Made by a program: the position numbers and the translations under genes. A stretch of 64,000 nt of DNA from a virus. Below, piece by piece: positions 24,830 to 52,410 of this stretch. How positions within the stretch are numbered: position 1 is the stretch's first letter; each line of letters starts with the position of its first letter. A model generated the notes under the pieces. That model worked only from the letters and a program-made list of their open reading frames with translations, made no database searches and was not told where the DNA came from. The stretch spans positions 62,001-126,000 of IMG/VR virus record IMGVR_UViG_3300047499_000113. One strand, given 5' to 3'.

Positions 24830-27800
24830 CTATTGGCTAACGCGGATCTGCAAGGTTGCCACTATATACTCTAGTGGGAACACCGGCACGTAGATCGCGT
24901 CGACCAGAACGATCGTCGGATCGTTCGGCGAGGTGGCCACCGAGATTCCGGAGACCGACTGCACGATCTGCTTGTCGATGAGCTGCCCGAACATACCAAC
25001 CACCTGGTTGTTGATGTTCGTCAGCGTCGCGTTGGTCAGCTTGTTCCCGATGAAGGGATCAAGCGTGTTGCGCATCGTCTGCTGCACGTACTGGATGGTC
25101 AGCGTGACAGACGGGGTCCGCGTGATGACCGTATCCAGGCGCGTGGTCAGACCTTGGCGGATTCGCAGGCCGGACAGCACCTGCTCGATGATGGTGACGC
25201 CTGCGACGGCGACTTGGTTGGCAACCGTGGGGTCGAGCACCGTGCCGAGCGACGTGAAGCCCTGGATCTGGCGCCGCGTGAGCGGAGTCGCCACGTCGAT
25301 CGCCGGGTTGCACGTGGAGCCCGAGACGGCCGCTGCCATGAACGAACCGTCGATGAGCTGCTCGAGCGAGTTGCCGTTCGTGTCGGTCACCGTCACGACG
25401 AACGAGTCGGGGTAGACCACGATCATCAGCTCCGAGGAGAGCCCCTGAGCGATGGCCTGGACACCGAGCGCCGTCGTGCCGACTGCGACACCCACCACGC
25501 CCATGCGCTCGCCCTCTTGACGGGGGCTGCTCATGAAGACGCAGTGCTGGTTGAGGTACGTCATCACCGAGGGATCGGTCGTCAGCGGCGTGATGACGTC
25601 CGCCTTGACCTGACCCGAGATGGGCTTGCGCAGAGTGTCGATTGCCGCCGTGTAGGTGGCATCCGAAGCCTGCGACTGGCCCGGTGCACGCAGCACCTGC
25701 TCGAGTCCGACGATGACCGCGCCGTTGAGCAGCGCGAGCGAAGCCGCCAGCGACAGCGGGTTGTCCGGCGTCGGCGTTCCGAAGTTCATCTGAATCGTCT
25801 TCAGGTCTCGGAACAGTGCCGGCGCCAGATCCGTCTTGCCGTACTGATACGAGATGTAGTAGACGTCTCCGATGGACGGCTGGAAACCCTTGTGCGGGTA
25901 CGTCGACACGATGCCGGTGGTGCCCGGCGCCATGTTGATCGTGTTGTACACGAAGAGTTCGACGCCGGGGATTGCCTTGGTCGAGATGGCAGCGTCGCAC
26001 GTGAAGATGGAGTTAACCACCAGCGTGAAGCTGCCGCCGTTGTCGTAGTCGCCAGCGGAGGCCGGCAGCACCGTGAAGCGCAGACCGGTCGTCGCGTCCG
26101 TGTACGTCTGGCCGGGGAAGCCGTAGCCGTGAGAGCCGCTGCTTCCGGCCGAGGACGAGACCTGGAAGCCCGCCATCGAGTTCTCGCCGATGCCGCCGCT
26201 CATGCCCGGGACGATGCCGAGGCCAGCATCCGGGACGAATGCCGAGTTGGCGATGTTCGTGAAGGCGATGGTCGAGGCCGAGCCCACAGATCGGGAATCG
26301 ATCTCGAGGTAGTTGCCGAGACCCTGGACATTCAGGAAGTAGGCAACTGCCAGAGCACCGAATCCGGTGTTGTTGTTGAGCGCCGTGGAGATGAGGGCTG
26401 CCGTGGGCTGCGTACGGGCTGCCGAGACACCCGACGTGAAGCCGAGCGGCATGTTGCCCGTGCTCGCCTGCAGAACCGCAAGCTGCGACTGAACCGTGTT
26501 GATCCTCGAGGTGAGGACCAGCTCTCCCACGTACTGACCCACGCCCGCCGACGCCACGAGATTCGCCAGGACCGTGTTGGACGAGTCGACACCGTCATTG
26601 GTGCCGTGGACGCTGTAGAGGCCCGCCGTCTGGTTGCGGTGCAGGTTGAATGCACCGGAAGTGGTCGAGTACGCGATGGCGCTGACCAGCGGAGCGAGGG
26701 TCCCGAAGGCCGCCGTCGCATTGGCTTGCGTGATCGTGTTGACCGTGTCGTTGACGACGTGGACACCGGACGCGATGAAGTGCGCGTTGAGCGTCGTCTT
26801 CAGGGCGTTGGCGAGGTTTGCACCGGTCGTGTACGGACCGCCGACAGGATCCGAATCCACAGGCACTGCGTTGAGTGCCGTGTAGTTCGTGATGTCGTTG
26901 ATCTCGTGGTGGACCGCGACACCGCCGTTGTTGTAGTGGGCCAGAACCTCGGTGCGGATCTGGTTGAGCAGCGTCGAAACCGTCGTGTCGTCCACCACCG
27001 ATCCGCCGCCGGCGTAGGGGCCACCAGCCGCAGAGGCGTAGTTGACGGTGAAGGTTCCGGACCCGCCAGTCGTGATGAGCCACGCCTGGTTGTTGATGGC
27101 CGGGTATGTCGAGCCAGTGATGTAGACGTACGAGCCCGTTGCGAAGGCGTAGGCCGACGTCGTGGTCACGGTGAAGGAGACGCCCGCCACCACCGTGATG
27201 CCGGTGATCGGACCACCCGCCTCGTTGGCGTCGGTCACGACGTTCACGTAGTCGGGGTAGCCGTGCACTCCCTGCTGCGAGAGGTGGCGGTTGTACGCCT
27301 CCTGGAGAGCGTGAGCCAGCGTGATTGCCGTCTGCAGATTGGTCGCAGTCGGCGTGGTCACGACGTTCGTCGCATCCGACAGCTGGTGGGTCTGCACCGA
27401 GATGGCGCCGCCGCTCACGTAGCCAGTCTGGTAGGCCGAGAACTGGAGCGTGAAGTGCGTGCCGTCGACGACAGTGACGAGCCAGATGTCGTTGAGCGCC
27501 TGAACTCCCACCGCGCCCGTGATCTTGATCAGAGCGTTGGTCGTCAGGCCGTGCGCCGTGTTGGTCTGGATTTCGAAGAGACCGCCACTGTTCGTGACGG
27601 CCGCGATGCCGCCGCCGACTGGGTTGTTCTCTCCGAGGTGGACGTTGTAATGGGTCGCCAGGTCGTTGACCAGGGCGATGGCGGTCGGAAGATCGACTGC
27701 CGCAGCCAGGGGCTCGTAAGCCGCCGTGACATCACCACCGCTCGTGTACGCGCCGGTGAACACCGACCCGTTGAGCGTGAAGTGGGTCGCGTCGAGCATC

Positions 27801-30649
27801 GTCACGGTCCACGACTGGTTGATCGCCGCGGTCATGCCACCCGTGCCGGTGACACCCGTGATGGCGACCACAGTGCCGGTGCCGAAGGGGCACGGCGTCG
27901 TGGTCTGCACCTCGAAGAGACCGCCATTGTTCGTGACGGTCGTGACCGCGAGCGCAGTCGGGCCGTCCGCGTACAGGTGGTAACCCGTCGGGTATACCGA
28001 CCCAACGTGCGCGTTGTACTGCGTGCGGATGTTGTTGACGACCGTGATGAGGCTGGCCGTCATCGCCGCCACGTCAGTCGGAGACGCGACCGAGAGGAAC
28101 GCGTCGTTGATGGCCGTGACCACGTCGTTCAGAGGAACGGCGGGGCCGGACGGCAGAGTGACGCCGAACTGCTGGCCGTCGACCGACAGCTGGAGGCTGT
28201 CGTTGACGCCTTGCGAGATGTTGTAGGGCGCGATGGCCGTACCGACGAGCTGGGCCGGCTGGTTCAAAGCGTTGTACGAGCCCACCGAGGTGTTGTTGCT
28301 CTGCAGGCCGACCTTCGGAGCGCCGTTGGACTGTCCCGCGCCGACCGGCGTGATGACAGTGGCGTTCGAGATGAGGCCGGAGAGCGCCGAGCTGTTGACG
28401 TTGCGGCCCTTGATCTGCAGGATCGCCTCGGTGCCGCCCGCGAATGAGGTGGCCGACACGAGGTTGTTCGGTGCCGTGCTGAAGAAGGTGCCGGTTCCGT
28501 CCTTGTGAGTCTGGACGTCAGCATCGATCGCCGTGTTGAGCGCGGACACCACGCCGGCCATCGTCGTGATCCCGACCATGGGGACCGCAGCGATGTTGAT
28601 GCCGTCGATGTTGAGCGCGATGTAGTCGGTCGATGCGAAGACCAACGCGTTGGGGTTGGCGACGGGCTGACCGAGGAGCAGAGCCGGGAAGGCAGTGCCC
28701 AGGTTGACCGTGACCGGCGCGTTGCCGTCGATGACCACCCCGCCGAAGTTCTGGCTGAAGGTGTACAGGTCGTACGGCTCGGGATTGGCGTTGGTGAACG
28801 AGGCGCCGTACGCGGGGTCCAGCGAGTCGAGGAACTGGACGGTCACCGTCTCCGGGACCGGGCTTCCTGCGCCCGTGAGGAACGCATCCGGGTTGTTCTG
28901 CACGCCGCTCGGCCACTGGACCTGCTTGGACAGACCCGAGACCGTGCCGAACGTCACGTTGAAGAGGTTGCCGCCGGTTGCCGCCGACGACACGGTGTAC
29001 TGGCCCACTCCGCTCGGACCCACGGTCTGCACCGAGAAGGTGAAGACGTCCTCGCCGATGCGGTTGTACCAGAAGGTCGCGAACGCCTGGTAGTCGGCCG
29101 GGACCGGATTGGCCAGGGTCACGATGTTGGTCGAAGAATCGACCGCGTTGACCTGAACCGGAGGATGCGCCTGCGCGTCACGCCAGCTCTTGCCGACGTA
29201 GACGATGACGAGATCCGGACGGTTGGTCGGAAGGTCGATGCGGCCGTTGGTGATCGTCTGGTAGAGCGACTGACCCAGCGGCGTGTCGCGGCCGTTGCCA
29301 GTCGTCGGCGACAGCGGCATCACGAACTTGGTAGTGCTGACCTGGTTGGTCGTCGGGTCGGTGTAGCGGGCGAGCGGAGCCGCGAAGATGCGGTTGTCGA
29401 CCAGAAGGCCCGTGATGACCGTCGAGTCGAAGTTCGCCGTGCCCGTCGTGTTGCCAGCCGCCACCGTGAAGGCGGTGCCCCACTGGATGGTGGACTGCTC
29501 GCCGTTGTTGACGATGACGAAGTCCGGGCCGTTCACGAAGTCGGTGCGGCCGGGGCCAATACCGCAGTTGGTGACCGACAGGACGTTGCTGTTGGGCAGG
29601 TAGTCGAACGTGTCCTGCCACGTGTTGAAGTAGTACGTGATGGCGACGATCGACCCAGGCTTCGGGGCGAAGGGCAGCGTCACGGTCTGGTGCTGTCCGT
29701 CGACAGCTGCGGCGAGAACCTGCTGGTTGTTGACCAGCACGGTGACCTTCGAGGGGTCGGTGGTCGTGATGCCGCCGCCCGAACCATCGACGATCGGTCC
29801 GTTGTAGACGCGGAACGCATTGTTGCGGCCCGTGGTTTGTCCCGGGTTGAAGCCGAGGGCGCCGTTGGCGTTGCCCGAGCCCACCAGGATGTTGCCCTGC
29901 GACACCAGCTGAACGTGGTTCAGGCCCTGGTTGTCGACGTGCACCGACGCCGTGAGGTCCGTGACGTTTGCCGCGTTGATGTCGTTGGCGATGTCCGAGG
30001 CGGCGCGCGTGGCGCCGGCCGTCAGCTTGATGGCGACGGTGTTCGTGTCATCGACCGTCAGTTGCAGCGTGTCGTTGACGCCGAGGATGATGTTGTAGGT
30101 CTCGGCCTTGGGCGCCACGAGGATGCCCGGAGTCGGCGTGACTTGCGGCGAGACGTTGTCGGTGATCCGAGTGTCGCCACGGTGGAAGTAGTAGTTGACC
30201 GCGACGATGTCAGTCGGCTGCGGCGGGATGAGCAGCTGGATGATGCCGTTCTGTCCGTCGACGGCCGAAACCACTGCTTGGCTGCCGTTGACCGTGACCG
30301 ACACCTTCGTGGTGTCGTAGGTGACCTTGCCCACGCCCGATCCATCGACGATCGGGTAGTTGCGCACCTTGAACTTCGTGATCGTCCCGTTGGCGTTGCC
30401 GAGCACGGGCTGCGCGTTCGTTCCGCTGACCACGAAACGGCCAGTGGGATCCTCGCCGTACACCGGCGTGTCAGCGACGCTGCTGGAGCCGCGAATCAGC
30501 TCGAAGTTCGTCTGCGTCAGGCTCTCCTGCGCGACTCCGATCAGAACTGGGACCCGCAACCCGCCGAGGATCTGGTTCAGCACCGGCTCGGCCAGCGTTT
30601 GCACGTAAACGCCGGGGGGCGCGTAGGTCGAGAAAGGTCCGATGCCCAT
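24830..30649 (-). CDS. tail sheath protein, exceptionally large
   Basis: At 1939 aa it is two to four times the usual sheath length. The N-terminus (GPFSTYAPPGVYVQTLAEPV) and the C-terminal 250 residues (GERMGVVGVAVG, LRIRQGLTTRLDTVITRTPS, VQQTMRNTLDPFIGNKL, VDAIYVPVFPLEYIVATLQI) carry the conserved sheath handshake and polymerisation core. Between them lie about 1500 residues of inserted beta domains in several repeated types: residues about 90-166 and 278-350; 185-213 and 808-835; and a W/THF/SGG unit at about 926-975, 1040-1082 and 1175-1217. These probably decorate the outside of the tail. ATG follows GGGAG. An HNH gene adjoins the 3' end, and an inverted repeat lies upstream. Confidence 0.9.
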   Translation of the reverse strand: MGIGPFSTYAPPGVYVQTLAEPVLNQILGGLRVPVLIGVAQESLTQTNFELIRGSSSVADTPVYGEDPTGRFVVSGTNAQPVLGNANGTITKFKVRNYPIVDGSGVGKVTYDTTKVSVTVNGSQAVVSAVDGQNGIIQLLIPPQPTDIVAVNYYFHRGDTRITDNVSPQVTPTPGILVAPKAETYNIILGVNDTLQLTVDDTNTVAIKLTAGATRAASDIANDINAANVTDLTASVHVDNQGLNHVQLVSQGNILVGSGNANGALGFNPGQTTGRNNAFRVYNGPIVDGSGGGITTTDPSKVTVLVNNQQVLAAAVDGQHQTVTLPFAPKPGSIVAITYYFNTWQDTFDYLPNSNVLSVTNCGIGPGRTDFVNGPDFVIVNNGEQSTIQWGTAFTVAAGNTTGTANFDSTVITGLLVDNRIFAAPLARYTDPTTNQVSTTKFVMPLSPTTGNGRDTPLGQSLYQTITNGRIDLPTNRPDLVIVYVGKSWRDAQAHPPVQVNAVDSSTNIVTLANPVPADYQAFATFWYNRIGEDVFTFSVQTVGPSGVGQYTVSSAATGGNLFNVTFGTVSGLSKQVQWPSGVQNNPDAFLTGAGSPVPETVTVQFLDSLDPAYGASFTNANPEPYDLYTFSQNFGGVVIDGNAPVTVNLGTAFPALLLGQPVANPNALVFASTDYIALNIDGINIAAVPMVGITTMAGVVSALNTAIDADVQTHKDGTGTFFSTAPNNLVSATSFAGGTEAILQIKGRNVNSSALSGLISNATVITPVGAGQSNGAPKVGLQSNNTSVGSYNALNQPAQLVGTAIAPYNISQGVNDSLQLSVDGQQFGVTLPSGPAVPLNDVVTAINDAFLSVASPTDVAAMTASLITVVNNIRTQYNAHVGSVYPTGYHLYADGPTALAVTTVTNNGGLFEVQTTTPCPFGTGTVVAITGVTGTGGMTAAINQSWTVTMLDATHFTLNGSVFTGAYTSGGDVTAAYEPLAAAVDLPTAIALVNDLATHYNVHLGENNPVGGGIAAVTNSGGLFEIQTNTAHGLTTNALIKITGAVGVQALNDIWLVTVVDGTHFTLQFSAYQTGYVSGGAISVQTHQLSDATNVVTTPTATNLQTAITLAHALQEAYNRHLSQQGVHGYPDYVNVVTDANEAGGPITGITVVAGVSFTVTTTSAYAFATGSYVYITGSTYPAINNQAWLITTGGSGTFTVNYASAAGGPYAGGGSVVDDTTVSTLLNQIRTEVLAHYNNGGVAVHHEINDITNYTALNAVPVDSDPVGGPYTTGANLANALKTTLNAHFIASGVHVVNDTVNTITQANATAAFGTLAPLVSAIAYSTTSGAFNLHRNQTAGLYSVHGTNDGVDSSNTVLANLVASAGVGQYVGELVLTSRINTVQSQLAVLQASTGNMPLGFTSGVSAARTQPTAALISTALNNNTGFGALAVAYFLNVQGLGNYLEIDSRSVGSASTIAFTNIANSAFVPDAGLGIVPGMSGGIGENSMAGFQVSSSAGSSGSHGYGFPGQTYTDATTGLRFTVLPASAGDYDNGGSFTLVVNSIFTCDAAISTKAIPGVELFVYNTINMAPGTTGIVSTYPHKGFQPSIGDVYYISYQYGKTDLAPALFRDLKTIQMNFGTPTPDNPLSLAASLALLNGAVIVGLEQVLRAPGQSQASDATYTAAIDTLRKPISGQVKADVITPLTTDPSVMTYLNQHCVFMSSPRQEGERMGVVGVAVGTTALGVQAIAQGLSSELMIVVYPDSFVVTVTDTNGNSLEQLIDGSFMAAAVSGSTCNPAIDVATPLTRRQIQGFTSLGTVLDPTVANQVAVAGVTIIEQVLSGLRIRQGLTTRLDTVITRTPSVTLTIQYVQQTMRNTLDPFIGNKLTNATLTNINNQVVGMFGQLIDKQIVQSVSGISVATSPNDPTIVLVDAIYVPVFPLEYIVATLQIRVSQ
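26997..27870 (-). repeat. three divergent repeat units inside the sheath insertion
   Basis: Three protein repeats of about 45-50 residues lie in the sheath insertion. Each runs from an ITG start through an N..W.VT or N.AWLIT motif and a THF/GTF strand to a Y.SGG or YAGGG turn. They are coded at about 27723-27870, 27403-27530 and 26997-27125. Their DNA sequences have diverged well beyond simple slippage repeats, so they are old domain duplications. Each is probably an immunoglobulin-like or beta-sandwich surface module (inference). Confidence 0.6.
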
Positions 30650-30794: not shown

Positions 30795-31244
30795 TCAGTC
30801 GCCAGCTTTACGCTTTTCGACCAAGTAGCGGGCGACTCCCATCTCACGGACCTTGAGACTCTCACCATCCGCAGGCCGGAAGGTGTTCTTGTCTTTGCCA
30901 GGCTCCTTCGCGATGGCAGCGGCGCCAGTCTCGCGCCGCACCTTGTCACGTTCCGCCTGTTCTCCGTTGATTCGGTTCCAGCGCTTGGCTGCACTCCGGC
31001 CAACAGCTTTATCTAGGGAGGGGTAGTCGAGATCATGCACGCCCGACTGGCCGTGCACTCCACTCTCTCCTCTCACACCACCCTTGAAGCTAAAGTTGGT
31101 GAGAGAGACTCCAGCCCGCGGTGCCAATTGGCCACATCCGGGACATGGATGGGCATTCTCGTACTGCTTGATATCGTCCTGGTTGACGAGGGTCTCCTCG
31201 AACTCCGCGTTGCAGGGCTCGCAGCGATACTCAAAAATCGGCAC
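30795..31244 (-). CDS. FmdB-like zinc-ribbon protein
   Basis: This 149 aa protein starts with PIFEYRCEPCNAEFEE and has a second pair CPGCGQLAPRAG, the CxxC...CxxC zinc ribbon of the FmdB family, often found as a small protein in phage structural blocks. The remainder (residues about 60-149) is basic and polar with a Gly/Val/His-rich segment (GGVRGESGVHGQSGVHD) and a charged helical end. The start codon is GTG at 31244, directly after the mobile NUMOD3 ORF. The role is unknown; a transcription-related or assembly role has been proposed for the family. It precedes the sheath promoter region. Confidence 0.65.
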   Translation of the reverse strand: MPIFEYRCEPCNAEFEETLVNQDDIKQYENAHPCPGCGQLAPRAGVSLTNFSFKGGVRGESGVHGQSGVHDLDYPSLDKAVGRSAAKRWNRINGEQAERDKVRRETGAAAIAKEPGKDKNTFRPADGESLKVREMGVARYLVEKRKAGD

Positions 31245-31830: not shown

Positions 31831-32097
31831 TTAAAAAAATTCGATCCAACATTCTTCTGCTAGATTCGCAACTTCGATATTTTGACAAGTCTCTAGGACT
31901 TCGTGGGAGAAGGCGTCCGGTCCATATTTGCGAATAGCATTCGGAAAGTGCCAACGTCCGCCCTTACTTCTCAGGGCAGTCGAGACATGGTCTTTCCATC
32001 GCTTCTCCATTGTCCGAGAAGTGATACCAATGTAACGACGACCAGAGTCAGTATGTGTATGACAGTAAATTGTCCAGACGGATTTTGATGATGCCAT
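31831..32097 (-). CDS. GIY-YIG nuclease domain of a split homing endonuclease
   Basis: This 88 aa product contains WTIYCHTHTDSGRRYIGITS, the GIY (IYC) and YIG motifs, then RWKDHVSTALRSKGGRW and YGPDAFSHEVLE with the conserved Glu region. It stops in EECWIEFF followed by TAA. Beyond the stop, in the next frame, the sequence continues as NTRNPEIGFNIMRGG, the normal continuation of a GIY-YIG domain, so the ORF is interrupted by a single-base shift. The first 127 bases overlap the 3' end of the structural gene at 31971. It is AT-rich compared with that neighbour. It is either a disrupted mobile gene or one needing slippage. Confidence 0.75.
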   Translation of the reverse strand: MASSKSVWTIYCHTHTDSGRRYIGITSRTMEKRWKDHVSTALRSKGGRWHFPNAIRKYGPDAFSHEVLETCQNIEVANLAEECWIEFF

Positions 32098-33353
32098 TGA
32101 ATAACACTACCAATTAGTAGCGTTATAAACGGACTCAAAACACGCTCGTAGGTCAGCTTCTTGCCAATCTTGACCGGCACCCCATTGATCCCAAGCTCGG
32201 TGGCCAACTGGAGCAAATCGTAGGAGGCTGCGCCCGAGAGGAAACCAAGGGTGTTGGCCTGCGATTCGGACGTGAGGTCCGTGCGGTTGATGACGATCGG
32301 CAACGGGACCCAGGTCTCCCAGTCCACGCGCAGCGAAAGGGTGACCGCGCTCTCGTAGTAGTAGTCGTCGATCTCGGCGTTGTAGACCTCTTCACTCTCG
32401 CCGCCGGGAGTGATGTCGAGAAGCTCAAGTCCCTCGAACCCGAGGACGTTCTGCCGCTCGAGGAACTTCTCGACCACGTAGTCACTCATGCGCTCTCTGT
32501 CGGTCGCATCACGAGCGAACACGATGAGGCTGAAAGTGACCTCGAACTTGCCACCGTAAACTTCGGCCACCTCGCCGCGAGTTCCGGTGACGACGATGGC
32601 CATTTGGTCGCCCTTCTGCACGCGGTCTCCGAACGCCAGAACAGCGCCGGGGATAGACTGAATATCCGTCCAATCGCGGTAGAAGTCGTAGGGACCCTGC
32701 TGAGGCAGCTGGTACCTGTAGTTGGCGAAAATGGAATCGCCGGCGGGAGTCGGCTGCAGGAACGTAACGACGGTGGTGTTATCCTCGGCCTCGTAGTTGA
32801 CCGAGTAGTCGACCCCAGGAACGAGGACGCGTCTGTTGTTGAGCGACAGACGCAGCGAGCCCGGATACACGTTCTCGTGAGAAAGCTGAGCGTATTGATC
32901 CGCCGAGTTCGTGAAGTAGATGAGCGGCTCGTTTAGGACCGTGATGATCGGGTCTACGATGAACTTTCCCGGCTTCTGGCGAGCGTCGTCTGGAAGCTCC
33001 TGCACCGTGACGATGTAGACGCCAGGCGGAGTCGGGAAGACACTTCTGTCCGGGTTGACTTCCTCGAGAATGGTGAAATTCTCGCGGGTCCACTCGAGTG
33101 AAGTGCCCGGGAAGTTCTTGACTGGCGCGAGCATCACGAATGACGACAGACGGCCGACGTAGTTGTCCGCGCTCAGGCGAACACGGTCAGCCGTCGTGTT
33201 ATCAACGATAATGCCGCGCTGGGGCCGCTGCTCAAACGAGAACTTGTTCTGGACGTTCTCGGAGTCCTCTCGATACCTCGGGTGATCGTAGAGGATCTGC
33301 TTGAGTTCGTGGATGACCCGCTCTTTCGTGGCGTTGGTGAGCCAATTCTTCAC
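31971..33353 (-). CDS. tail terminator/neck-type structural protein, 3' end altered
   Basis: This 460 aa protein is beta-rich, with an N-terminal part (NWLTNATKERVIHELKQILY), a mid domain (LNNRRVLVPGVDYSVNYEA, VVTFLQPTPAGDSIFANYRY) and a region resembling sheath-terminator or tail-completion proteins (AFGDRVQKGDQMAIVVTGTR, EVYGGKFEVTFSLIVFARD, LGFEGLELLDITPGGES). The sequence after about residue 415 (KKLTYERVLSPFI onwards) becomes hydrophobic and unlike the rest, and is coded in the AT-rich area of the homing endonuclease, so the original C-terminus has probably been replaced. The exact role is inferred from gene order next to the sheath. Confidence 0.55.
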   Translation of the reverse strand: MKNWLTNATKERVIHELKQILYDHPRYREDSENVQNKFSFEQRPQRGIIVDNTTADRVRLSADNYVGRLSSFVMLAPVKNFPGTSLEWTRENFTILEEVNPDRSVFPTPPGVYIVTVQELPDDARQKPGKFIVDPIITVLNEPLIYFTNSADQYAQLSHENVYPGSLRLSLNNRRVLVPGVDYSVNYEAEDNTTVVTFLQPTPAGDSIFANYRYQLPQQGPYDFYRDWTDIQSIPGAVLAFGDRVQKGDQMAIVVTGTRGEVAEVYGGKFEVTFSLIVFARDATDRERMSDYVVEKFLERQNVLGFEGLELLDITPGGESEEVYNAEIDDYYYESAVTLSLRVDWETWVPLPIVINRTDLTSESQANTLGFLSGAASYDLLQLATELGINGVPVKIGKKLTYERVLSPFITLLIGSVIQWHHQNPSGQFTVIHILTLVVVTLVSLLGQWRSDGKTMSRLP

Positions 33354-33377: not shown

Positions 33378-33629
33378 TCAGACTCCTTTGAACGGATCCG
33401 GTTCCGTTGCAGGCTCGGGAGCCGGGAGAGTCGTGCGCTCGGAATCGTCGACTTCGACCTTTGCCTTCTTCGCTTTGGACTTCGGCGTAGCGGCCGGGGT
33501 GGGAGGGGGAGGAGGTGCAGCGCCCTTGTCCGCCTTCTGGGCCTTGTGCAGGTCCGGATAGCAGAATTCGATGACGTCGGCTTCGGTCAACAACGTCCGC
33601 GGGAACATCGCGCCTTTGATGTGTGCCAT
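33378..33629 (-). CDS. small hypothetical protein with Pro-rich centre, 83 aa
   Basis: It starts MAHIKGAMFPRTLLTEADVI with GGAGAG 3 bases before the ATG, the same spacing used for the chaperone gene at 8806. The centre is a Pro/Ala/Lys-rich disordered stretch (APPPPPTPAATPKSKAKKAK) and the end is acidic (PEPATEPDPF). It lies between the structural gene at 31971 and the actin-like gene. No function is recognised; it may be an adaptor peptide for the neck proteins. Confidence 0.5.
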   Translation of the reverse strand: MAHIKGAMFPRTLLTEADVIEFCYPDLHKAQKADKGAAPPPPPTPAATPKSKAKKAKVEVDDSERTTLPAPEPATEPDPFKGV

Positions 33630-33653: not shown

Positions 33654-34661
33654 TCAGTCGTCCATCTGAGACAGCATCAGGAGACCAGTCGCGACGGCCG
33701 TCATCGGGTCGATCGCGCCACGCACCTCCGAGATCTGGATGGGGAACTTGGCGCGATGAAGCTCGAAGCGCTCCTTGAACTTGTCGAGGAAGCCGCCGGC
33801 GAGCGAGGTCCCGCCCGACACGATGATGGGGATGGGCTTCGGGACGAGAAGCTCGTTCTTGGCCTTCGCGAAGCGCTTGCTGAACTCGTCGATGGTGTAA
33901 TCGATGAGTGTCTGGACGAAGAGCGCGATGGCCTCTTCCTCGCGCGTCTTGGGCTTGGTGATGTCGATGCCGCCTTCCTTGACGGCGCACATCTTGGCCG
34001 CCGTCGAGTTGACAGCTTTGGCCGCACCACCATCGATCCAGTCACCACCCTTGCCGAGAGAAAACTCGAGGGCGCTCATGGCGTTGTACGCCAGACACAC
34101 GTTTGTCATGCCCGAGCCATACGAGATGCCGAGTCCGGAGAAGCTCTCCTTCGTGCAATCCGCATAGATGATGGCGAGCGCTTCGTTGACGGGCTCTGCC
34201 TGATACCCGAGTTCGCCCAGGATCTTGCCGAGGATTGCCCGGTGGTAGGTCACGTCCGACCCCACGACGTCGACCGCCGGCGCCGGGATGGAGTAGCAGC
34301 ACTTCTCCTTGGGCATGCGAGGCTCGCCCAAGATCTGCTTCATCATCAGACCGATGACCTGCTGCGCGTCGATTTCGCCCGAGGCGATCACGCCCTGGGA
34401 CATGGGACGACGAGCCTCCCTGTTGAACAGGTTGGCCGTCTCGAGGGCTTTGTCACCGATGACTAGGAGCTTGCCGTCGACCTCCACGTAGTCGGTGTTG
34501 GAGATCTTGAGCATCCGCTTGGTGTCGAGCGGAAGGTCCAAGAAGGCGTCGCGGACCCGGGAGTGCACGATCTTCTTGGCACTGCGCCGCGCGGCCACGA
34601 AATTCATCGTGCCGCAGTCGAGTCCTACCCCCGCGTCTTCAGGCTTCTTGGTGTCGGTCAT
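33654..34661 (-). CDS. actin-like ATPase (ParM/MreB/Hsp70 superfamily)
   Basis: This 335 aa protein contains all five actin-fold motifs in order: phosphate-1 GLDCGTMNF at residues 13-21, connect-1 EPVNEALAIIYA at 156-167, phosphate-2 LGISYGSGMTNV at 177-188, adenosine IIVSGGTSLAGGF at 279-291, and connect-2 DPMTAVATGLLM at 318-329. It should bind ATP and may form filaments in the infected cell. ATG at 34661 follows GGAG and is preferred over a start 9 codons upstream. The gene stands inside the late neck/tail block, not in a partition locus, and no ParR-like adaptor or centromere repeat is evident next to it. Roles in positioning, packaging or maturation are inferences. Confidence 0.8.
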   Translation of the reverse strand: MTDTKKPEDAGVGLDCGTMNFVAARRSAKKIVHSRVRDAFLDLPLDTKRMLKISNTDYVEVDGKLLVIGDKALETANLFNREARRPMSQGVIASGEIDAQQVIGLMMKQILGEPRMPKEKCCYSIPAPAVDVVGSDVTYHRAILGKILGELGYQAEPVNEALAIIYADCTKESFSGLGISYGSGMTNVCLAYNAMSALEFSLGKGGDWIDGGAAKAVNSTAAKMCAVKEGGIDITKPKTREEEAIALFVQTLIDYTIDEFSKRFAKAKNELLVPKPIPIIVSGGTSLAGGFLDKFKERFELHRAKFPIQISEVRGAIDPMTAVATGLLMLSQMDD

Positions 34662-34694
34662 GGGTCTGCGTCTCCGTATCCAGGACAATACAGC

Positions 34695-35048
34695 TCAGTA
34701 CCACCTGGGCAGTATATCTTTGGATTCCGGAACAGGAGCAGAATCCTGTCGTTCACGCAAGTCGTCGAAGGTAGCCAGGAGCTGCTCGAGGACGACTATC
34801 TCCGCGCGCAGCCGCTTGTTCACGAACTCGTCGAAGTGAGCCAGTGCCTCCGGGTGGTTCAGAAGGTCGACACCACCGCGGCCGGAGTATAGGTCACCCT
34901 TCGCATACTGCTCGAGACGGCCCAGGGCGGTCAGCACCAGGGCCGCCACCCGCTGAGCAAGAGCGTCCCCACTATCCACCAGGTCCTGCCTGCCGCACTC
35001 CAGCAGGAAGTCCCTTGCTTCGTTGGACCAGAAGGATTGGCGGGGCAT
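34695..35048 (-). CDS. hypothetical helical protein, 117 aa
   Basis: The protein is helical (SNEARDFLLECGRQDLVDSG, LAQRVAALVLTALGRLEQYA, FVNKRLRAEIVVLEQLLATF) with a polar C-terminus. Its start overlaps the previous stop in TAATG, so it is translated with the gene at 35048. It ends 34 bases before the actin-like gene. No known family is recognised. It is small enough to be a head-tail joining or adaptor protein and it lies in that block. Confidence 0.5.
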   Translation of the reverse strand: MPRQSFWSNEARDFLLECGRQDLVDSGDALAQRVAALVLTALGRLEQYAKGDLYSGRGGVDLLNHPEALAHFDEFVNKRLRAEIVVLEQLLATFDDLRERQDSAPVPESKDILPRWY

Positions 35049-35596
35049 TACTTCTTGCGCGCTTTCTTGAGGGCCTCGAGTCCGGCGTCGAAGTCTTCCG
35101 TGTCAGCTTCCGAGGTTTGGACGTTGAGTTTGACCTCGGCGGATTCTGGCACTATCTGCTTCGGTATGAACATCGGCTCATCAGAAGGCTTGCTGACTGC
35201 CTGCGCGGCTTGACCGGGAAGAGCAGAGGCCGTCTGATAGATGACTTGCGGGGTAGGCGCCCGTTGAAGAGCGGCAGCCATACTATCGAGTTTCGCCATG
35301 ATGCTTTGGAGCATGGCGGATTCCACGGGCGGCGCCGGCGGAGGAATTGTGGGGTGCGAGGGAGCAGCCGAGAAAGGCCACACTGGGATGGGCGGTTTCG
35401 GCGGAACTGGGGCGGGAGCGCGCTGCTCTATGGTTATCCACTTCTTGCGTTCGTACTCTCGAACCTGGCGCGACGACATGAAGGTCTGCTCGGGCAAGAG
35501 CTTCGAGCTGGATGCACCGCCAGCACCATCGAGCCGCACACCAATGTCCTCGATGGTCAGGCTCGAAGGCAATCGGTTCGTCACCAAGTACATCAT
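35048..35596 (-). CDS. hypothetical virion-block protein, 182 aa
   Basis: The N-terminal 55 residues look like a small globular domain (YLVTNRLPSSLTIEDIGVRL, EQTFMSSRQVREYERKKWIT). A Pro-rich linker (PAPVPPKPPIPVWPFSAAPS) follows and then a polar, mostly disordered C-terminal half with one helix (SAMLQSIMAKLDSMAAALQR). The ATG overlaps the previous stop by 4 bases. It may be a minor structural or scaffolding-type protein. No known family is recognised. Confidence 0.5.
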   Translation of the reverse strand: MMYLVTNRLPSSLTIEDIGVRLDGAGGASSSKLLPEQTFMSSRQVREYERKKWITIEQRAPAPVPPKPPIPVWPFSAAPSHPTIPPPAPPVESAMLQSIMAKLDSMAAALQRAPTPQVIYQTASALPGQAAQAVSKPSDEPMFIPKQIVPESAEVKLNVQTSEADTEDFDAGLEALKKARKK

Positions 35597-36291
35597 GTGG
35601 ATATGTAGTTCTTGAGAATCTTCTCTATCTGCGGTGCGAACTTCTCCAACACTACTTGCCGCAGCTCATCCATGAACCTCTTCATGATGCCCTGGAACTT
35701 GCCCTGCGGAAAGTGGATGTCGCCCGATTTGGCCACCCGAGTCTGGCGTTCGAAAGTGACCGAGAGCCGACCCTCTCGGTTGATGTTCATGTCGCGCGGC
35801 GCGCTCATGGCGAGCCTATGGTTCATCTTGCGCTCTTCAGGACCTTTGAACGCGTTGCGCGGTCCATATTTGCTACTGTTGGGACCCCACTGGCGCAAGT
35901 TGGACCGGGTCCGATTGGGCCTGTTGAGCGCACTTGGAACAGGCCGCCTCTTATCCTTCATCCGCGCGACGCGGTTGAAGCCTCCGCGGGCGATAACCTG
36001 GTAGGTCCTGTCGGCCGCTTCTTCGTACGCTTCGGCGGCTCGAGCTGCCGATTCCTCGAGCTTCTTGACGTCGATGTCGACCGCCTCGAGCTGAAGAAGG
36101 ATTTCGAACACGATGCCCTCGGCGCCAACGTGCGAGAACACCTCGTAGTCCTTGAGCATCGGCTTTTGCGGGAAGCCAGCCTCGTCGAGCACTTTCTTCA
36201 GTGCCATCAGGCCGTCTTTGGCAATCTCGTCCTTGACTGCCTCAGTGGCCCTCTCGAGTTGTGCCACCAGGCTGGTCGCGATGCTGGCCAC
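35593..36291 (-). CDS. probable neck/head-tail connector protein, 232 aa
   Basis: The start is GTG at 36291, 2 bases after the end of the upstream gene. The N-terminal half is a long helical region (TSLVAQLERATEAVKDEIAK, KLEESAARAAEAYEEAADRT). The middle is basic and Arg/Asn-rich (MKDKRRPVPSALNRPNRTRS). The C-terminal third carries MSAPRDMNINREGRLSVTFE and ends helical. A compact protein of this size at this position resembles minor neck or tail-completion proteins, but no signature residue proves it. Confidence 0.4.
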   Translation of the reverse strand: MASIATSLVAQLERATEAVKDEIAKDGLMALKKVLDEAGFPQKPMLKDYEVFSHVGAEGIVFEILLQLEAVDIDVKKLEESAARAAEAYEEAADRTYQVIARGGFNRVARMKDKRRPVPSALNRPNRTRSNLRQWGPNSSKYGPRNAFKGPEERKMNHRLAMSAPRDMNINREGRLSVTFERQTRVAKSGDIHFPQGKFQGIMKRFMDELRQVVLEKFAPQIEKILKNYIST

Positions 36292-36293
36292 GA

Positions 36294-37625
36294 TTACCTA
36301 CGGTTCGTGTTCTCTGCAGTCGGCGAGTTACCGCGATACTGACGCTCGGCCGGAATGGTCTCGCGGTCAGTGAGCATCGGGAATGCTTTACCCTTGCCCG
36401 GAACGATGTACCGAGTCTGCGGTGCGACGAGGAGTTCCGTCTGAATGACGGGAACTTTGTACCGAATATCGGCTGTGTCGAGGTGCGACGTCGTGAAGAA
36501 CTGCTGGAGCTGCATGCCACGAATGCTCGGCATGCGCACCGGGCCGATTCCGTACCTGTCGCCGTTGAGCTTCACGAAGAAATCGCGCTGGGTCAGCAGC
36601 GGGCTCGGACCAGTCCACGTGTCGTACGGGTGCTGGACCGTGCGACCTCGATTGCCCTGCGAAATGGAGCGTTCCCCATCTTCCGGAGCGATGAGGATGT
36701 CGTACGGACCGTCGTATCCTCCGATGATGCTCGTGCCGTAGCACGTGAGGCAGGAAGCGTCGGGCTGCTTGCGAGAATAGTCGTAGCAGCCGCACTTCGG
36801 GCCGACCAGCTTCATCTTGAAGAGTTTGACCGGCTCGCCACCGTTGCCCAGCATCCAGCGGTTACGGCGGATGGCTTCACGCCAAATCCAGTCCAGGCTC
36901 TCTATCTGACGATTGTTGGCCTCGGCCGCGCGGTCCAGCGAGGTCTCGATGAGCGCGCCGGTGTTCCTGTCGACGGCGACCGTCGTGATCCGGTAATAAG
37001 TCTTCTGGTCCAGCTCCGAGGGGACCTCACGCTCGAGGTAGTAGCGGTACGTCGCCAGGACGAGGTCAGTCGGATTCTGAGGCAGGACGGGCGGAGACTG
37101 CACCTGCGAAGCCACGTCGAAGGTCACGGTCCGGCGAAGCTCGACCTCTCCCATCTTGGCGTTGATGCTCTCGACGAACGCCGGGATGCCGTTGACTGTG
37201 ACGTAGACGTTGAGGTTCGTACAATTCGGGCTGTGAGCCGACGTCGTGTCGAGGATTATCGGCTTGTTCTCCGTTTGGAAGATCCAGCGGCCATCCGGGT
37301 CCGTGTCACCGCGCGCGATGAAGCGCTGGGTGACATTCTCGTTCATGGCGACCCGGATGAGGAGTCGGTCGCGATAGAAGTCCCCGCCAATGGGCAAGGC
37401 ATTGAGCCGGACGTAGGGCCCATACTCGGAGTCGAAGCTCCGGTAGACGTTGACGCCCACGATGTCGAACTGCGTGTTGGCTGGAATCTCTGTCGGACTC
37501 GTCCACCTCAAGTCCGTGACATGCAGTTCGAACCCGCTTGAACACATGATGTTCAGCGGTGGCAGAGGCAGCGCCGGATACTGAAGCTCGAGCGTGCCTA
37601 TTGGGCGATCGGGCGGGAAGGGCAT
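36294..37625 (-). CDS. virion structural protein with Cys cluster (neck region)
   Basis: This 443 aa protein is beta-rich (LHVTDLRWTSPTEIPANTQF, GVNVYRSFDSEYGPYVRLNA, LIRVAMNENVTQRFIARGDT) with a conserved-looking metal cluster at about residues 275-300, KCGCYDYSRK then CLTCYGTSIIGGYDGP. Cys-rich 'CxC...CxxCYGT' elements of this kind occur in structural proteins of large myophages that sit near the head-tail joint (from recollection, not searched). The C-terminus contains PVIQTELLVAPQTRYIVPG. ATG at 37625 follows GAAGGGAC. It is co-transcribed with the neck-type genes on both sides. Confidence 0.5.
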   Translation of the reverse strand: MPFPPDRPIGTLELQYPALPLPPLNIMCSSGFELHVTDLRWTSPTEIPANTQFDIVGVNVYRSFDSEYGPYVRLNALPIGGDFYRDRLLIRVAMNENVTQRFIARGDTDPDGRWIFQTENKPIILDTTSAHSPNCTNLNVYVTVNGIPAFVESINAKMGEVELRRTVTFDVASQVQSPPVLPQNPTDLVLATYRYYLEREVPSELDQKTYYRITTVAVDRNTGALIETSLDRAAEANNRQIESLDWIWREAIRRNRWMLGNGGEPVKLFKMKLVGPKCGCYDYSRKQPDASCLTCYGTSIIGGYDGPYDILIAPEDGERSISQGNRGRTVQHPYDTWTGPSPLLTQRDFFVKLNGDRYGIGPVRMPSIRGMQLQQFFTTSHLDTADIRYKVPVIQTELLVAPQTRYIVPGKGKAFPMLTDRETIPAERQYRGNSPTAENTNRR

Positions 37626-37646
37626 GTCCCTTCCTTCGATACCCGA

Positions 37647-38012
37647 TTAGGAGGTTGGCGACTCGCCAGCCGGGGGCGCAGGAGCAGCTTGCGGGACGGG
37701 CGGCGGAGGGGCTCCGTTCGCCGGCGGAGCCATCGGGTTGGGCACGCAGACGATGTCCACCAGGCCCTCCTTGGTCTCCTTGTTCATGCTAATGCGGATG
37801 TCCTGGATGGTGTTCTCGTCGACACCCGCTTCCTTGTACGCCTTGCTCAGGAGCTGATTGCGGGCCGTTGTGATGGCCTCGAACTGTGCCATGGCTTGCT
37901 TGTGCTGCATTTCCAGGTTGCAAGCCTGGATGGCCCAATGCTGGGCGGACGACTCGAGCTTGGCGAGACTCTGAAGCTCTTCGGCCGAGAGCTTCGCTTG
38001 GCGGTGGATCAT
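37647..38012 (-). CDS. hypothetical helical protein with Pro-rich tail, 121 aa
   Basis: ATG at 38012 begins MIHRQAKLSAEELQSLAKLE. A GTG 20 codons upstream (38072) would overlap the previous gene and was not used. The first 75 residues are helical (WAIQACNLEMQHKQAMAQFE, LLSKAYKEAGVDENTIQDIR). A short conserved-looking segment follows (ISMNKETKEGLVDIVCVPNP), and the last 35 residues are Pro/Ala-rich and disordered. No family is recognised; it could be an assembly factor. Confidence 0.5.
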   Translation of the reverse strand: MIHRQAKLSAEELQSLAKLESSAQHWAIQACNLEMQHKQAMAQFEAITTARNQLLSKAYKEAGVDENTIQDIRISMNKETKEGLVDIVCVPNPMAPPANGAPPPPVPQAAPAPPAGESPTS

Positions 38013-40484: not shown

Positions 40485-41294
40485 ATGCTCAGAGGACTGC
40501 GCAAGCTCGCCATTTCCTTCCGCTGGATGAGCGAGAACTCGGACCGGATACAAGTGCAGCCGCAGATTGTATGGACCAGGCGCTCTGCAGTCACAGAGAA
40601 GCCGAAAGCACGGCCCGTAAGTCCGAGGCCACATCGTGTAGCCCGGTCTATGACGATGACCGCGCAGCTGCCCTGGAAGTTTCCGTTCAAGCCAGTGCGG
40701 GCGCCATGGTCAGTCTTCCAGACGTTGACACTCTCCAACTACTTCATGGAGAAGAAGTTCGACGGCTGGCGAGCCATCGTGCAGGTCGGCGCGAACAACA
40801 TCGTGACGCTCTGGACCCGCGAGAAGCGGCTGATCACGATGCCGGACAACTTGAACAAGCAGCTCGCATTGCTCCAGATGCCGGAAGGCACTCTTCTGGA
40901 CGGCGAGATTTGGAACATGTCCAAGCGCGGCGCCTGGAAGCACAATCGCTCGGCCGTGTGCGCCCTGACGCTTTGGGACGCCATCCGGGTCGACACGCGA
41001 GACTTCTCAGGCGAGCCCATCGAGAAGCGGCGGGAGGCCCTGGAGAAGCTGCTCGAGGGCAAGGACACGCCCGACATCAAGGCGACGGAGCTTCTGGCGG
41101 CCGACGAGACTATCGCGCGTCAGATCGACGCGGAAGCCCGGTCATTTCGCGAGGGCTCGCAGGCTCGATCCGGTTTCATTCACGGCGTGGTTTTGAAGCG
41201 GCGTGGGTCGCCGCGACGAGACAACGCCGTTCGGTGTGTCGAGCACGCCGATTGGATCAAGATTGTCTTCGACGGCATGCAGAGCGGCCTCTGA
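40485..41294 (+). CDS. minimal ATP-dependent DNA ligase-like protein
   Basis: This 269 aa protein has the nucleotidyltransferase motifs: motif I KFDGWR with the adenylated Lys91, motif III LLDGEIW at residues 137-143, motif IV region GVVLKRRGSPRR at 234-245, and WIKI (motif V-like) at 257-260. The preceding 60 residues are basic and may be disordered. There is no OB-fold C-terminal domain, and the protein ends soon after motif V, so it is either a minimal ligase, a ligase-like adenylyltransferase or a truncated one. ATG 40485 has GAGAGG behind it. The last 153 bases overlap the 3' end of the convergent UDP-glucose dehydrogenase gene. Confidence 0.75.
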   Translation: MLRGLRKLAISFRWMSENSDRIQVQPQIVWTRRSAVTEKPKARPVSPRPHRVARSMTMTAQLPWKFPFKPVRAPWSVFQTLTLSNYFMEKKFDGWRAIVQVGANNIVTLWTREKRLITMPDNLNKQLALLQMPEGTLLDGEIWNMSKRGAWKHNRSAVCALTLWDAIRVDTRDFSGEPIEKRREALEKLLEGKDTPDIKATELLAADETIARQIDAEARSFREGSQARSGFIHGVVLKRRGSPRRDNAVRCVEHADWIKIVFDGMQSGL

Positions 41295-42608
41295 TTCTGG
41301 CTGATACTTCCGGACGATCCCGAACAGCTTGACGCCGGCTGCGTCAAAATCGCGCTCGTCCCAAACGTTGCGGCCATCGAAGGCCACCAGGTCCCGGGAT
41401 AGGCGCTTGAGATGCTGCACGTCAGGATTGCGATACTGACGCCACTCGGTGCAAAGGACGATGGCGTCCGCACCAAGGACAGACTCGTACATTTCGCTCG
41501 CGATGCTCACGCGATTGCCGTATCTCTCGTGCACCCGCTGCAAAGCTTGCGGGTCATGCACGATGACGTCGGCTCCGGCCGCGAGCATATCGTCGATGAA
41601 ATCGACAGCAGGAGACTCGCGGATGTCGTCGGTCTCCGCTTTGAACGCGGCACCCCACACGCAGATCTTCTTGCCATGCAGATTGCCGTAGAACTTGGAC
41701 ACGAGCTGGCCGAGCAGGTGTCGCTGGACGTTGTTGGCGTTGTTCGCTGCGTTGACCACGAGAAGATCCTGCCCGACCATCTCCGCCATGTGACGCAGAG
41801 CCATCACATCTTTGGGAAGACAGGAGCCGCCGTACCCGGGCCCGGGGTACAGGTACTGGTGTCCGATACGGGGATCGGCGCCCATCCCGCGACGCACGAA
41901 GTCGATGTCCGCCCCAAGAGCGGTAGCGAGTCTGGCCAGCTCGTTTATGTACGAAATGCGCGTCGCAAGAAACGCATTCGAGGCGTACTTCACGAGTTCG
42001 GAGGACGCCGGATCCATGACGAGCGTCTTGCCCGAGGCCATCGGCCGATAGAGCCGCATGAGGGCGTCTCTTGCGCCGGCGCAGGTGGTTCCAATGACCA
42101 CTCGGTCGGGCCGCATGAAGTCTTCGACCGCCGTACCCTCGCGGAGGAACTCCGGATTGGAGGCCACGCAGCAGTGCTTGTCGAAGTACGACGAGATGAT
42201 CTTGCCGACTGCGTGCGTCGTCCCGACCGGCACTGTGCTCTTGACCACGACAACCTTGTGGGGCTGCTTGGTCTCGCGCAAGACTTCTCCGATCGTGCGC
42301 GCCGTGGCCATCACACTCGATAGGTCGGCCGACCCGTCCGAAGCCTGCGGCGTGCCGACAGTGATGAAGACGACGTCGGCCTGAACGATCGATTGATGAA
42401 CATCAGTCGTGAAGGACAGCCGACCCTCGCCCATGTTGCTGGCGAGCAGGTCGTCCAGGCCGGGCTCGTAGATCGGCGACTTGATGCGGTTGAGCTGGGA
42501 GATCTTGGTCGCGTCGGTGTCCGCGCAAACCACTTCGTTCCCGAACTGCGCGAATCCCGTGCCCGAAACCAAACCAACGTATCCCGCCCCGATCATCGCC
42601 AGCTTCAT
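41142..42608 (-). CDS. ugd: UDP-glucose 6-dehydrogenase
   Basis: This 488 aa enzyme oxidises UDP-glucose to UDP-glucuronate with NAD+ (EC 1.1.1.22). Seen directly: Rossmann GAGYVGLVSG at residues 8-17, SNPEFLREGTA with the substrate loop (150-160), and GPGYGGSCLPKD with the catalytic Cys263, followed by VVNAANNANNVQRH and the C-terminal domain. The last 45-50 residues (after FGIVRKYQPESEAA) extend beyond the usual end and are coded in the overlap with the ligase gene. In this gene block it would supply the substrate of the UDP-xylose synthase at 48459. ATG follows GGTGG. This is high confidence by motif. Confidence 0.92.
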   Translation of the reverse strand: MKLAMIGAGYVGLVSGTGFAQFGNEVVCADTDATKISQLNRIKSPIYEPGLDDLLASNMGEGRLSFTTDVHQSIVQADVVFITVGTPQASDGSADLSSVMATARTIGEVLRETKQPHKVVVVKSTVPVGTTHAVGKIISSYFDKHCCVASNPEFLREGTAVEDFMRPDRVVIGTTCAGARDALMRLYRPMASGKTLVMDPASSELVKYASNAFLATRISYINELARLATALGADIDFVRRGMGADPRIGHQYLYPGPGYGGSCLPKDVMALRHMAEMVGQDLLVVNAANNANNVQRHLLGQLVSKFYGNLHGKKICVWGAAFKAETDDIRESPAVDFIDDMLAAGADVIVHDPQALQRVHERYGNRVSIASEMYESVLGADAIVLCTEWRQYRNPDVQHLKRLSRDLVAFDGRNVWDERDFDAAGVKLFGIVRKYQPESEAALHAVEDNLDPIGVLDTPNGVVSSRRPTPLQNHAVNETGSSLRALAK

Positions 42609-42627
42609 CTGCCACCTGTCTGCAACG

Positions 42628-44184
42628 TTACTCGGCGACGGCCTCGGCCATTGGGGGGCTCCTTCTCAGGATAAAATGAGGAAGGTCGCTCTGGCCCATG
42701 GAGTGCTCGTAACGCATGGCCGCCTTGCCTGGATTGAACGGAATACCGAGCTTCTCGCGCACGGAGTTCTCGACCCAATTGCGCATCTTCACCAGCTCTT
42801 CACCGCTCAGGTGATCGGTGAAGACGTACGAGTGGTACCCGCCGTTGGGGTCGCCCTTGTAATATTCGGCCACTTTCGTGAAGTCCACGTCGTAGGCATG
42901 CAGCCTATCACCGGACTTCTTACATGTGTACGTCCAAACGTCCTCGAGCGTCGGGTGCTCGATGGCCTCGTCGTAATACGGGGTGCCGGGGTAGGTCGTG
43001 ATGACCGTGCAGTCGAAATCGTCTGGCTTGACCTGCAAGAGCCAATCATGTACCGCGGTGATCGTTTCCTCGGACTCTCCGGGATGACCCACCGACATCA
43101 GGGCCTTGACCTTGAGCCCATGGCGGCGAGCGATTTCGAGGACGCGCGTGTTGTCGTCGATAGTCGCTTTCTTGTTGATGTTCTGCAGGATGCGCGGAGA
43201 AGCCGCCTCGAATCCGCAGAGAAGCCAGCGGAAGCCAGCGCGGTACATGGCCGCAGCCTGTTCGTCCGTGAAAAGCTCCGACTTAACAAACCCGCGGAGT
43301 CGAAACTCGGCGCCTACTTCGGACTGCAAATCCGACAGTGCATTCATCAGCTCGACGATGCTCGGGTTGACGTTCAGTTCGTCATCGTAGAACATGAACC
43401 CGCGGAATCCGTAGTTGCGATGAAGCATCGCCACTTCGCGCACGATAGACTGCGTCGTGCGAGTGCGGATCATGCGCAGGGACTTGGAATTGCGGCCACC
43501 GCAGAACCCGCATCCGAATGGGCAGCCGAGCTGCGCGATGAGACTCGTGGCCTTCTCGCCATCGATGGTGTAATTGTATGAGCTGACGTCGACGAGATGC
43601 CGTGCCGGGTAGGGCGATGCATCGTAGGAAACGTCCGTCATGAACAGCCCGCTTCGAGGGTCGTCACCGTCGATGATGCGAGGAGCGTCGGGTTTGAGAG
43701 CAGCGAATACGGCAGCCTCACCATCACCCGAGACAAGAACGTCGAAATTCTGCAGCAAGCGGTCGAGTGCGGCGTGGGCACGGCCAGTGCGACCTGCCTT
43801 CTTCTCGAGCTTGACGGCCGAATGCACAAGTGTGACGTGCGGGCCGCCGATGATGATCTTCATGTCCGGTCGGACGGCTCGGATGCGCTCAGCCACCTTC
43901 ACCGCGGCCGGCAATTGCGGTGTGGTCGTAGTCAGGGCTGCGACCCGAGCCCGGGATTTCTTGGCGTACTCGTCGACGACATCGAGATAGTTCTCGATGC
44001 CCGACAAATCGAGGAGTTCGACCTCGTGACCCGCACGCTCAAGAACAGCGGCCACCTTGAGGATGCCGAGACTCATGAATACCCGCTCGTCGAGCAAAAA
44101 CACCGAGGGCGGTGTGATCATCAGGACCGGCTCCGGCGATCCCCTATCCTTGCCGACAAGCCTCCCGAGCGGAATGATATTCAC
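42628..44184 (-). CDS. radical SAM enzyme with B12-binding-like N-terminal domain
   Basis: This 518 aa protein has a GTG start. Residues about 15-190 look like the cobalamin-binding fold of this class (RVFMSLGILKVAAVLERAGH, KIIIGGPHVTLV, GDGEAAVFA). The radical SAM cluster motif CPFGCGFC (Cys221, 225 and 228) binds the 4Fe-4S cluster. A typical barrel follows (VMFYDDEL-like ENVNPS region, GFRWLLCGFEAASP, VKALMSVGHPGESEE). It ends in a C-terminal domain with a CKKSGDRLHAYDVDFTKVAE segment. Family members methylate or rearrange sugars, lipids or antibiotics. Here a sugar or surface-glycan modification is inferred from neighbouring genes. Its substrate is unknown. Confidence 0.8.
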   Translation of the reverse strand: MNIIPLGRLVGKDRGSPEPVLMITPPSVFLLDERVFMSLGILKVAAVLERAGHEVELLDLSGIENYLDVVDEYAKKSRARVAALTTTTPQLPAAVKVAERIRAVRPDMKIIIGGPHVTLVHSAVKLEKKAGRTGRAHAALDRLLQNFDVLVSGDGEAAVFAALKPDAPRIIDGDDPRSGLFMTDVSYDASPYPARHLVDVSSYNYTIDGEKATSLIAQLGCPFGCGFCGGRNSKSLRMIRTRTTQSIVREVAMLHRNYGFRGFMFYDDELNVNPSIVELMNALSDLQSEVGAEFRLRGFVKSELFTDEQAAAMYRAGFRWLLCGFEAASPRILQNINKKATIDDNTRVLEIARRHGLKVKALMSVGHPGESEETITAVHDWLLQVKPDDFDCTVITTYPGTPYYDEAIEHPTLEDVWTYTCKKSGDRLHAYDVDFTKVAEYYKGDPNGGYHSYVFTDHLSGEELVKMRNWVENSVREKLGIPFNPGKAAMRYEHSMGQSDLPHFILRRSPPMAEAVAE

Positions 44185-44221
44185 CCCGAAAAAGCCTGAT
44201 TAGAACTCTGTATAGTCCTCC

Positions 44222-44923: not shown

Positions 44924-45062
44924 TCGGATTACCGCATTCCTCACAGCATCCTTCGAGACCGTCGTCGTCTTCGTCGTCTTGAGACACGATCTCGACCAGA
45001 ACCGGATTGCATCGATCCGCTGACGGTCCGTCGATCGGTCGCAGGCATACTGTCTTGTTCAT
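44904..45062 (-). CDS. small zinc-binding-type protein, 52 aa
   Basis: This ORF is shorter than most, but it is coupled to the glycosyltransferase gene by an ATGA overlap. It reads MNKTVCLRPIDGPSADRCNP, an acidic stretch, then CCEECGNPITRGPR. Four or five Cys, including CCEEC, suggest a mini zinc-binding fold. The acidic centre and basic tail are unlike random sequence. Its stop lies in the 3' end of the convergent FkbM gene. The function is unknown. Confidence 0.6.
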   Translation of the reverse strand: MNKTVCLRPIDGPSADRCNPVLVEIVSQDDEDDDGLEGCCEECGNPITRGPR

Positions 45063-52347: not shown

Positions 52348-52410
52348 GCGGTCTTGGTCTCTGTATGCGTGTGGACCGGCGAACCTGCCGGTCAATCACA
52401 CGTTACCGAG

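Follow-up and report, generated by a model that had tools for sequence, protein, structure and literature searches.

In vivo, volactin of Haloferax assembles into dynamic, cell-bridging filaments (PMC10869688). AlpC, an actin-like protein of prophage CGP3, tethers prophage DNA together with AlpA (PMC4446434), and in jumbo phages that form a nucleus, capsids are transported by PhuZ (PMC9067925). What is known of filament use in jumbo phages mostly concerns PhuZ, which is a tubulin. Among the papers found that mention volactin, none deals with phages going by its title or abstract, and no paper was found that describes the phage actin gene family reported here.

We analysed a stretch of 64,000 nucleotides (the window), taken from a virus record of 240,015 bases (IMGVR_UViG_3300047499_000113, positions 62,001 to 126,000). 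The rest of the record was examined in stretches. The window contains an actin gene (33654–34661, minus strand) which, going by its sequence, belongs to the phage branch of the Volactin family.

Identity, fold and nucleotide-binding motifs of the actin

The ORF, on the minus strand, starts with an ATG at 34661, ends with a stop at 33654 and encodes 335 aa. The sole alternative start is a TTG nine codons upstream. In the Pfam search, the protein matched Volactin (PF25216) with E=2.4e-73 and 247.9 bits (curated cut-off: 35 bits). The match comprised residues 12–328 and profile positions 3–318 of 321, meaning that it was full-length. MreB profiles stayed below their cut-offs: Pfam MreB_Mbl matched weakly with 16.1 bits (cut-off 27) and NCBIfam MreB with 15.1 (cut-off 365.75). 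There was no match to the PHROG profiles.

The AlphaFold2 model, computed with an alignment of 15 relatives, showed an actin fold (mean pLDDT 90.2, pTM 0.89). A structure search had been proposed in the initial annotation and was run with Foldseek against the PDB. MreB, MamK and BeeR came out on top (E 1.8e-14 to 1e-12, TM 0.58–0.70), and EutJ was also among the structural matches. In the sequence-profile search, MamK ranked first (1.3e-5), followed by MreB. ParM was absent among the listed fold and profile matches. In a viral structure library, nothing close to the model was found, only distant Hsp70s and Gp506 of phage G (10% identity).

The initial annotation had called the gene an actin-like ATPase, and the real 335-aa ORF, the PF25216 match and the confident predicted fold bear this out. 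It had also raised an Hsp70-like fold with chaperone activity only. A reading as an Hsp70 chaperone is unlikely, given the length of the protein and MreB and MamK as the best fold matches; a single actin fold extends up to the C-terminus, with no substrate-binding domain after it.

All five actin-fold motifs had been reported as present, which was right for four of them. Phosphate 1 (LDCGTMN), connect 1 (NEA) and the adenosine motif (SGGTS) were found, and connect 2 was recognisable. Phosphate 2 (GISYGSGMTN) is present without the usual Asp: the Asp of DxGxGT is replaced by Ser180, which aligns with the Asp of VDIGxGTT in MreB and MamK (profile alignment). Ser180 is invariant in 80 of 80 phage rows, in 14 of 14 archaeal rows and also in the actin of the phage LR756511. 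The connect-1 Glu160 is invariant as well, and 47 positions are conserved in both phage and archaeal Volactin members. As the Ser is found throughout the Volactin relatives, it is a family trait and no defect of the window gene. It also means that ATP hydrolysis may differ from that of canonical actins.

In one relative (L016:6-2054), the actin gene is split in frame by an intein at the GKGGDWID motif (Intein_splicing, LAGLIDADG_3), and close to the C-terminus the frame also contains one stop codon. Further Intein/LAGLIDADG matches were found in the virus record of the window (L103:15222-19304 and L101:15529-18330). They fall in a class II ribonucleotide reductase and in a protein with a head-protease match.

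Gene neighbourhood and partner gene

The neighbours listed next are all on the minus strand. Farthest upstream among them is a 443-aa minor tail or neck protein with a conserved Cys cluster (36294–37625), which matched Tunturi_5 gp322, 'minor tail protein' (hhalign probability 99.9, E=8e-35). It is followed by a fast-evolving 232-aa neck-region protein (35593–36291) and by a 182-aa protein (35048–35596), the proposed partner or adaptor, which was characterised by family alignment, model and profile search. Between partner and actin lies a 117-aa protein (34695–35048) that is found in a subset of the clade only (tblastn matches in L003, L015, L031, L036 and L047).

Downstream of the actin are a variable, Pro-rich protein of 83 aa (33378–33629) and a 460-aa protein of the tail terminator family (31971–33353), which matched Tunturi_5 gp324, 'tail terminator' (hhalign probability 98.2, E=3.5e-14). 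An FmdB-type zinc-ribbon protein of 149 aa (30795–31244; TIGR02605, E=5e-10) is conserved between the terminator and the sheath. The giant tail sheath itself comprises 1939 aa (24830–30649; phrog_2839 tail sheath, E=2e-25) and resembles the sheaths of Tunturi_5 and phage G. Known sheath families match only the C-terminal part of this protein, whose relatives have 1428–2488 aa. PDB profile searches with two neighbours of the actin gave no usable match. In locus L036 (2071 onward), the actin ORF has 441 aa and is continuous with a sequence like the Pro-rich downstream protein, which means that the two are naturally fused or that a stop codon was lost.

The location in a structural block, also stated in the initial annotation, was confirmed. 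The block is on the minus strand, with the sheath in the window and the terminase, portal and head-protease match elsewhere in the record (~160–173 kb, minus strand like the tail genes of the window). The structural block further includes a gene of the UDP-glucose dehydrogenase family and glycosyltransferases (window 41142–52395).

Many unrelated small proteins begin with a common peptide, approximately L-x-x-IAxRVA(A). Per residue, motifs of this type turned up ~17 times as often at N-termini as in the interior of ORFs (22 of 1352 ORFs). Sites were found in the window near 38343 and 40448 (minus strand), elsewhere in the record (L097, L101, L104 and L105) and in loci such as L003, L007, L013 and L040. 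The N-terminal peptide could be a sorting or capsid-targeting signal.

Synteny was examined in 62 non-duplicate related loci (GC 0.37–0.67). The order actin, tail terminator, sheath was kept in all 58 loci that hold the other two genes, and the 443-aa gene was upstream of the actin on the same strand in all 50 loci holding it. The actin was more conserved than the terminase in 17 of 17 phages with a terminase match. It was also more conserved than the 443-aa gene (50 of 50), the terminator (59 of 60), the zinc-ribbon gene (53 of 53) and the sheath (55 of 58). Only w38871, the most conserved structural gene, was on par with it; as the BLAST identities refer to unequal alignment lengths, small differences in conservation carry little weight.

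The partner family adjoins the actin, directly or almost directly upstream, nearly everywhere. By profile, it was found next to the actin in 12 of 12 searched clade records with actin, and Tunturi_5, phage G and LR756511 gave no match to it. An alignment of 32 members revealed a low overall identity, with two fixed ends and a variable linker. The N-terminal domain has ~60 aa and the motif I-x-DLG-x-x-L, and the C-terminal tail is basic (consensus DPxFIPSxIVP...ALKKLRKK). In the window partner, this tail reads DEPMFIPKQIVP...ALKKARKK, with a helix at residues 167–181 and a linker helix at residues 93–112. The model had a pLDDT of ~98 for residues 1–60, and its last helix was fairly confident.

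The fold search with the partner model against the PDB returned nothing below E=0.3, and its N-terminal domain is without known relatives. Searches against Pfam, PHROG and PDB gave no match to a DNA-binding family, an unrecognised DNA-binding fold being possible. No iteron array of the parC or alpS kind was present in the 3.1 kb around the pair (34600–37700), which hold two-copy, chance-like repeats only. The initial annotation had described the actin as lacking a partition partner and had suggested looking for a nearby adaptor gene with a DNA-binding domain. It was correct in that there is no adaptor of the ParR or AlpA type and no recognised DNA-binding domain nearby. What the search found instead is a conserved, linked partner gene of a non-ParR kind.

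Distribution, phylogeny and host

The source virus belongs to a clade of huge contractile-tail phages with contigs of up to 618,736 bases. Its replication genes are bacterial in type: a DnaB-like helicase, subunits of the DNA polymerase III clamp loader, and RecD2. Because of these genes, and because the nearest isolate, Tunturi_5, infects an acidobacterium, the host is taken to be bacterial; an archaeal virus is rejected on the same grounds. A tubulin of the PhuZ type (PF00091) was not matched in 21 records.

One profile scan of IMG/VR yielded 277 stretches encoding relatives of the actin, of which the best 80 were fetched. In INPHARED, only two records matched the actin, both from uncultured huge phages, and phage G had no Volactin match. 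Members on haloarchaeal plasmids share 35–37% identity with the phage actin over 96% of its length. The Volactin cut-off was passed by 14 of 145 genomes sampled from the phylum of one Thermoplasmatota genome. For bacteria, the sampling for PF25216 covered control genomes and one pattern scan.

In a tree of 79 proteins, 64 phage rows formed one clade with a support of 100/100, whose branch has a length of 3.18 changes per site. The range of Volactin is widened beyond haloarchaea and Thermoplasmatota to a clade of huge phages, in which it is a fixed and slowly evolving late gene. The actin of LR756511 (595 kb; L094:12001-13002) stood apart from the other proteins on a very long branch, and its placement in this tree is unsure. 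It is a second, very divergent phage volactin without neck-tail neighbours or partner and is possibly an independent acquisition.

One contig in the Thermoplasmatota phylum set (G034:C18, L129) encodes an actin of the phage clade, the tail of the partner and a peptidoglycan amidase that includes a peptidoglycan-binding domain. The C-terminal tail of the partner ends just before the actin, and the genes downstream of the actin differ. Genome G034 counts among the 14 of 145 genomes through this contig, which is probably a piece of phage DNA that ended up in an archaeal bin.

Tunturi_5 (PP885688; 309 kb, Acidobacteriota host; PMC11924767) served as a natural comparison with an empty site. Like the clade, and in the same order, it has a minor tail protein, gp323, a tail terminator, a small Cys-containing protein and a tail sheath, including homologues of the 443-aa gene, the terminator and the sheath. 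Unlike the clade, it has neither actin nor partner: gp323 and gp324 are separated by a spacer of just 22 bases, and the whole genome gave no Volactin match. As the same neck-tail module exists minus both genes, actin and partner together resemble a cassette of two genes. The huge phages may have acquired this cassette, or Tunturi_5 may have lost it. Tunturi_5 makes contractile tails, of which both the extended and the contracted state have been observed (PMC11924767). The cassette is therefore no basic need of this tail type.

Proposed role and comparison with known systems

The reading we put forward, and to which we give an even chance, is that actin filaments made late in infection are tethered by the partner to virion parts and move or hold particles. 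Judging from the gene position, the actin would be expressed together with the neck and tail proteins. It would then assemble into ATP-dependent filaments. The partner would act as an adaptor: with one end it would dock on the neck, the tail or the capsid of the virion, and with its other end it would bind the filament, most simply through the conserved C-terminal helix. Within the host cell, the filaments would transport, gather or keep in place heads, tails or complete particles. Two fixed ends with a variable stretch between them would suit a tether, and which end binds what is a guess from conservation. The family, a fold near the filament formers MreB and MamK, the fixed position, the conservation and the linked partner argue for this reading. 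On the other side, the linkage to tail genes also fits a non-filament assembly factor, and the divergent volactin of LR756511 occurs without the partner or this gene order.

The main rival, which we consider rather unlikely, is a non-polymerising actin-fold ATPase that aids the assembly of neck and tail or stays in the virion. Actin-fold members of the FtsA, EutJ and chaperone types work without dynamic filaments. In its favour are the strict linkage to the tail terminator and sheath, a conservation matching that of w38871, the structural match to EutJ and the unusual phosphate-2 Ser. However, the top fold and profile matches, MreB and MamK, form filaments, and an archaeal member of the family polymerises in vivo (PMC10869688). 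Moreover, the tail module of Tunturi_5 has no actin, which makes the gene dispensable for this tail type.

A filament that positions or segregates DNA, as in ParM/ParR or AlpC/AlpA, and is merely sited among late genes is improbable. The partner contains no recognised DNA-binding domain and the pair has no iteron array, and a ParM- or AlpC-type partition system is set aside for want of both. MamK and MreB rank first, with ParM absent among the listed matches, and the position in the late block is conserved. These points outweigh the basic C-terminal tail of the partner, the co-transcription of AlpC with a partner gene and the ties of phage AlpC (PMC4446434) and archaeal salactin (PMC10746226) to DNA. 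Least probable of all is a filament aimed at the host, which would alter the shape of the infected cell or disturb the MreB of the host. Haloferax volactin influences cell shape (PMC10869688), and the fold is MreB-like, but the strict linkage to neck and tail genes would be left without a reason, and placement among early genes would be expected rather than a partner in the structural block. Overall, a late, assembly-linked role is favoured over plasmid-like segregation. The initial annotation had leaned the same way, and its view is now better supported by the position kept in 58 of 58 loci and by the lack of a recognised DNA-binding adaptor and of iterons. What it missed are the Volactin membership, the conservation across the clade of huge phages and the linked partner gene.

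Regarding the late filament reading, PhuZ is a proposed analogue by task only, as a filament that moves capsids; PhuZ is a tubulin, whereas the fold here is that of actin. With slightly under even confidence, we see the cassette as a Volactin-family actin with a new type of adaptor that shifts or arranges virion parts as particles assemble, the actin counterpart to capsid trafficking by PhuZ. Two proteins would allow a direct test of actin-driven virion assembly in phages. MreB and MamK are the best structural and profile matches of the phage actin, which differs from them in falling under the curated MreB cut-offs and in its phosphate-2 Ser. AlpC of prophage CGP3 is likewise an actin-like protein that is encoded by a phage and has a linked partner gene. 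However, AlpC is related to ParM, early and linked to DNA through AlpA and the alpS repeats (PMC4446434), whereas the phage actin is in a late block and has no recognised DNA-binding adaptor or repeats. Volactin of Haloferax volcanii (HVO_2015) shares PF25216 and the motifs DxGTMN, NE(A/G), SxGxGMTN, GGDWID and KE with the phage actin, other haloarchaeal members having stood in for HVO_2015 in the motif and identity comparison. Unlike Haloferax volactin, the phage actin is encoded by a phage, lies in a tail gene block, has a partner gene and forms a separate clade. Here, a known actin family is present in a new phage form, together with a new linked partner.
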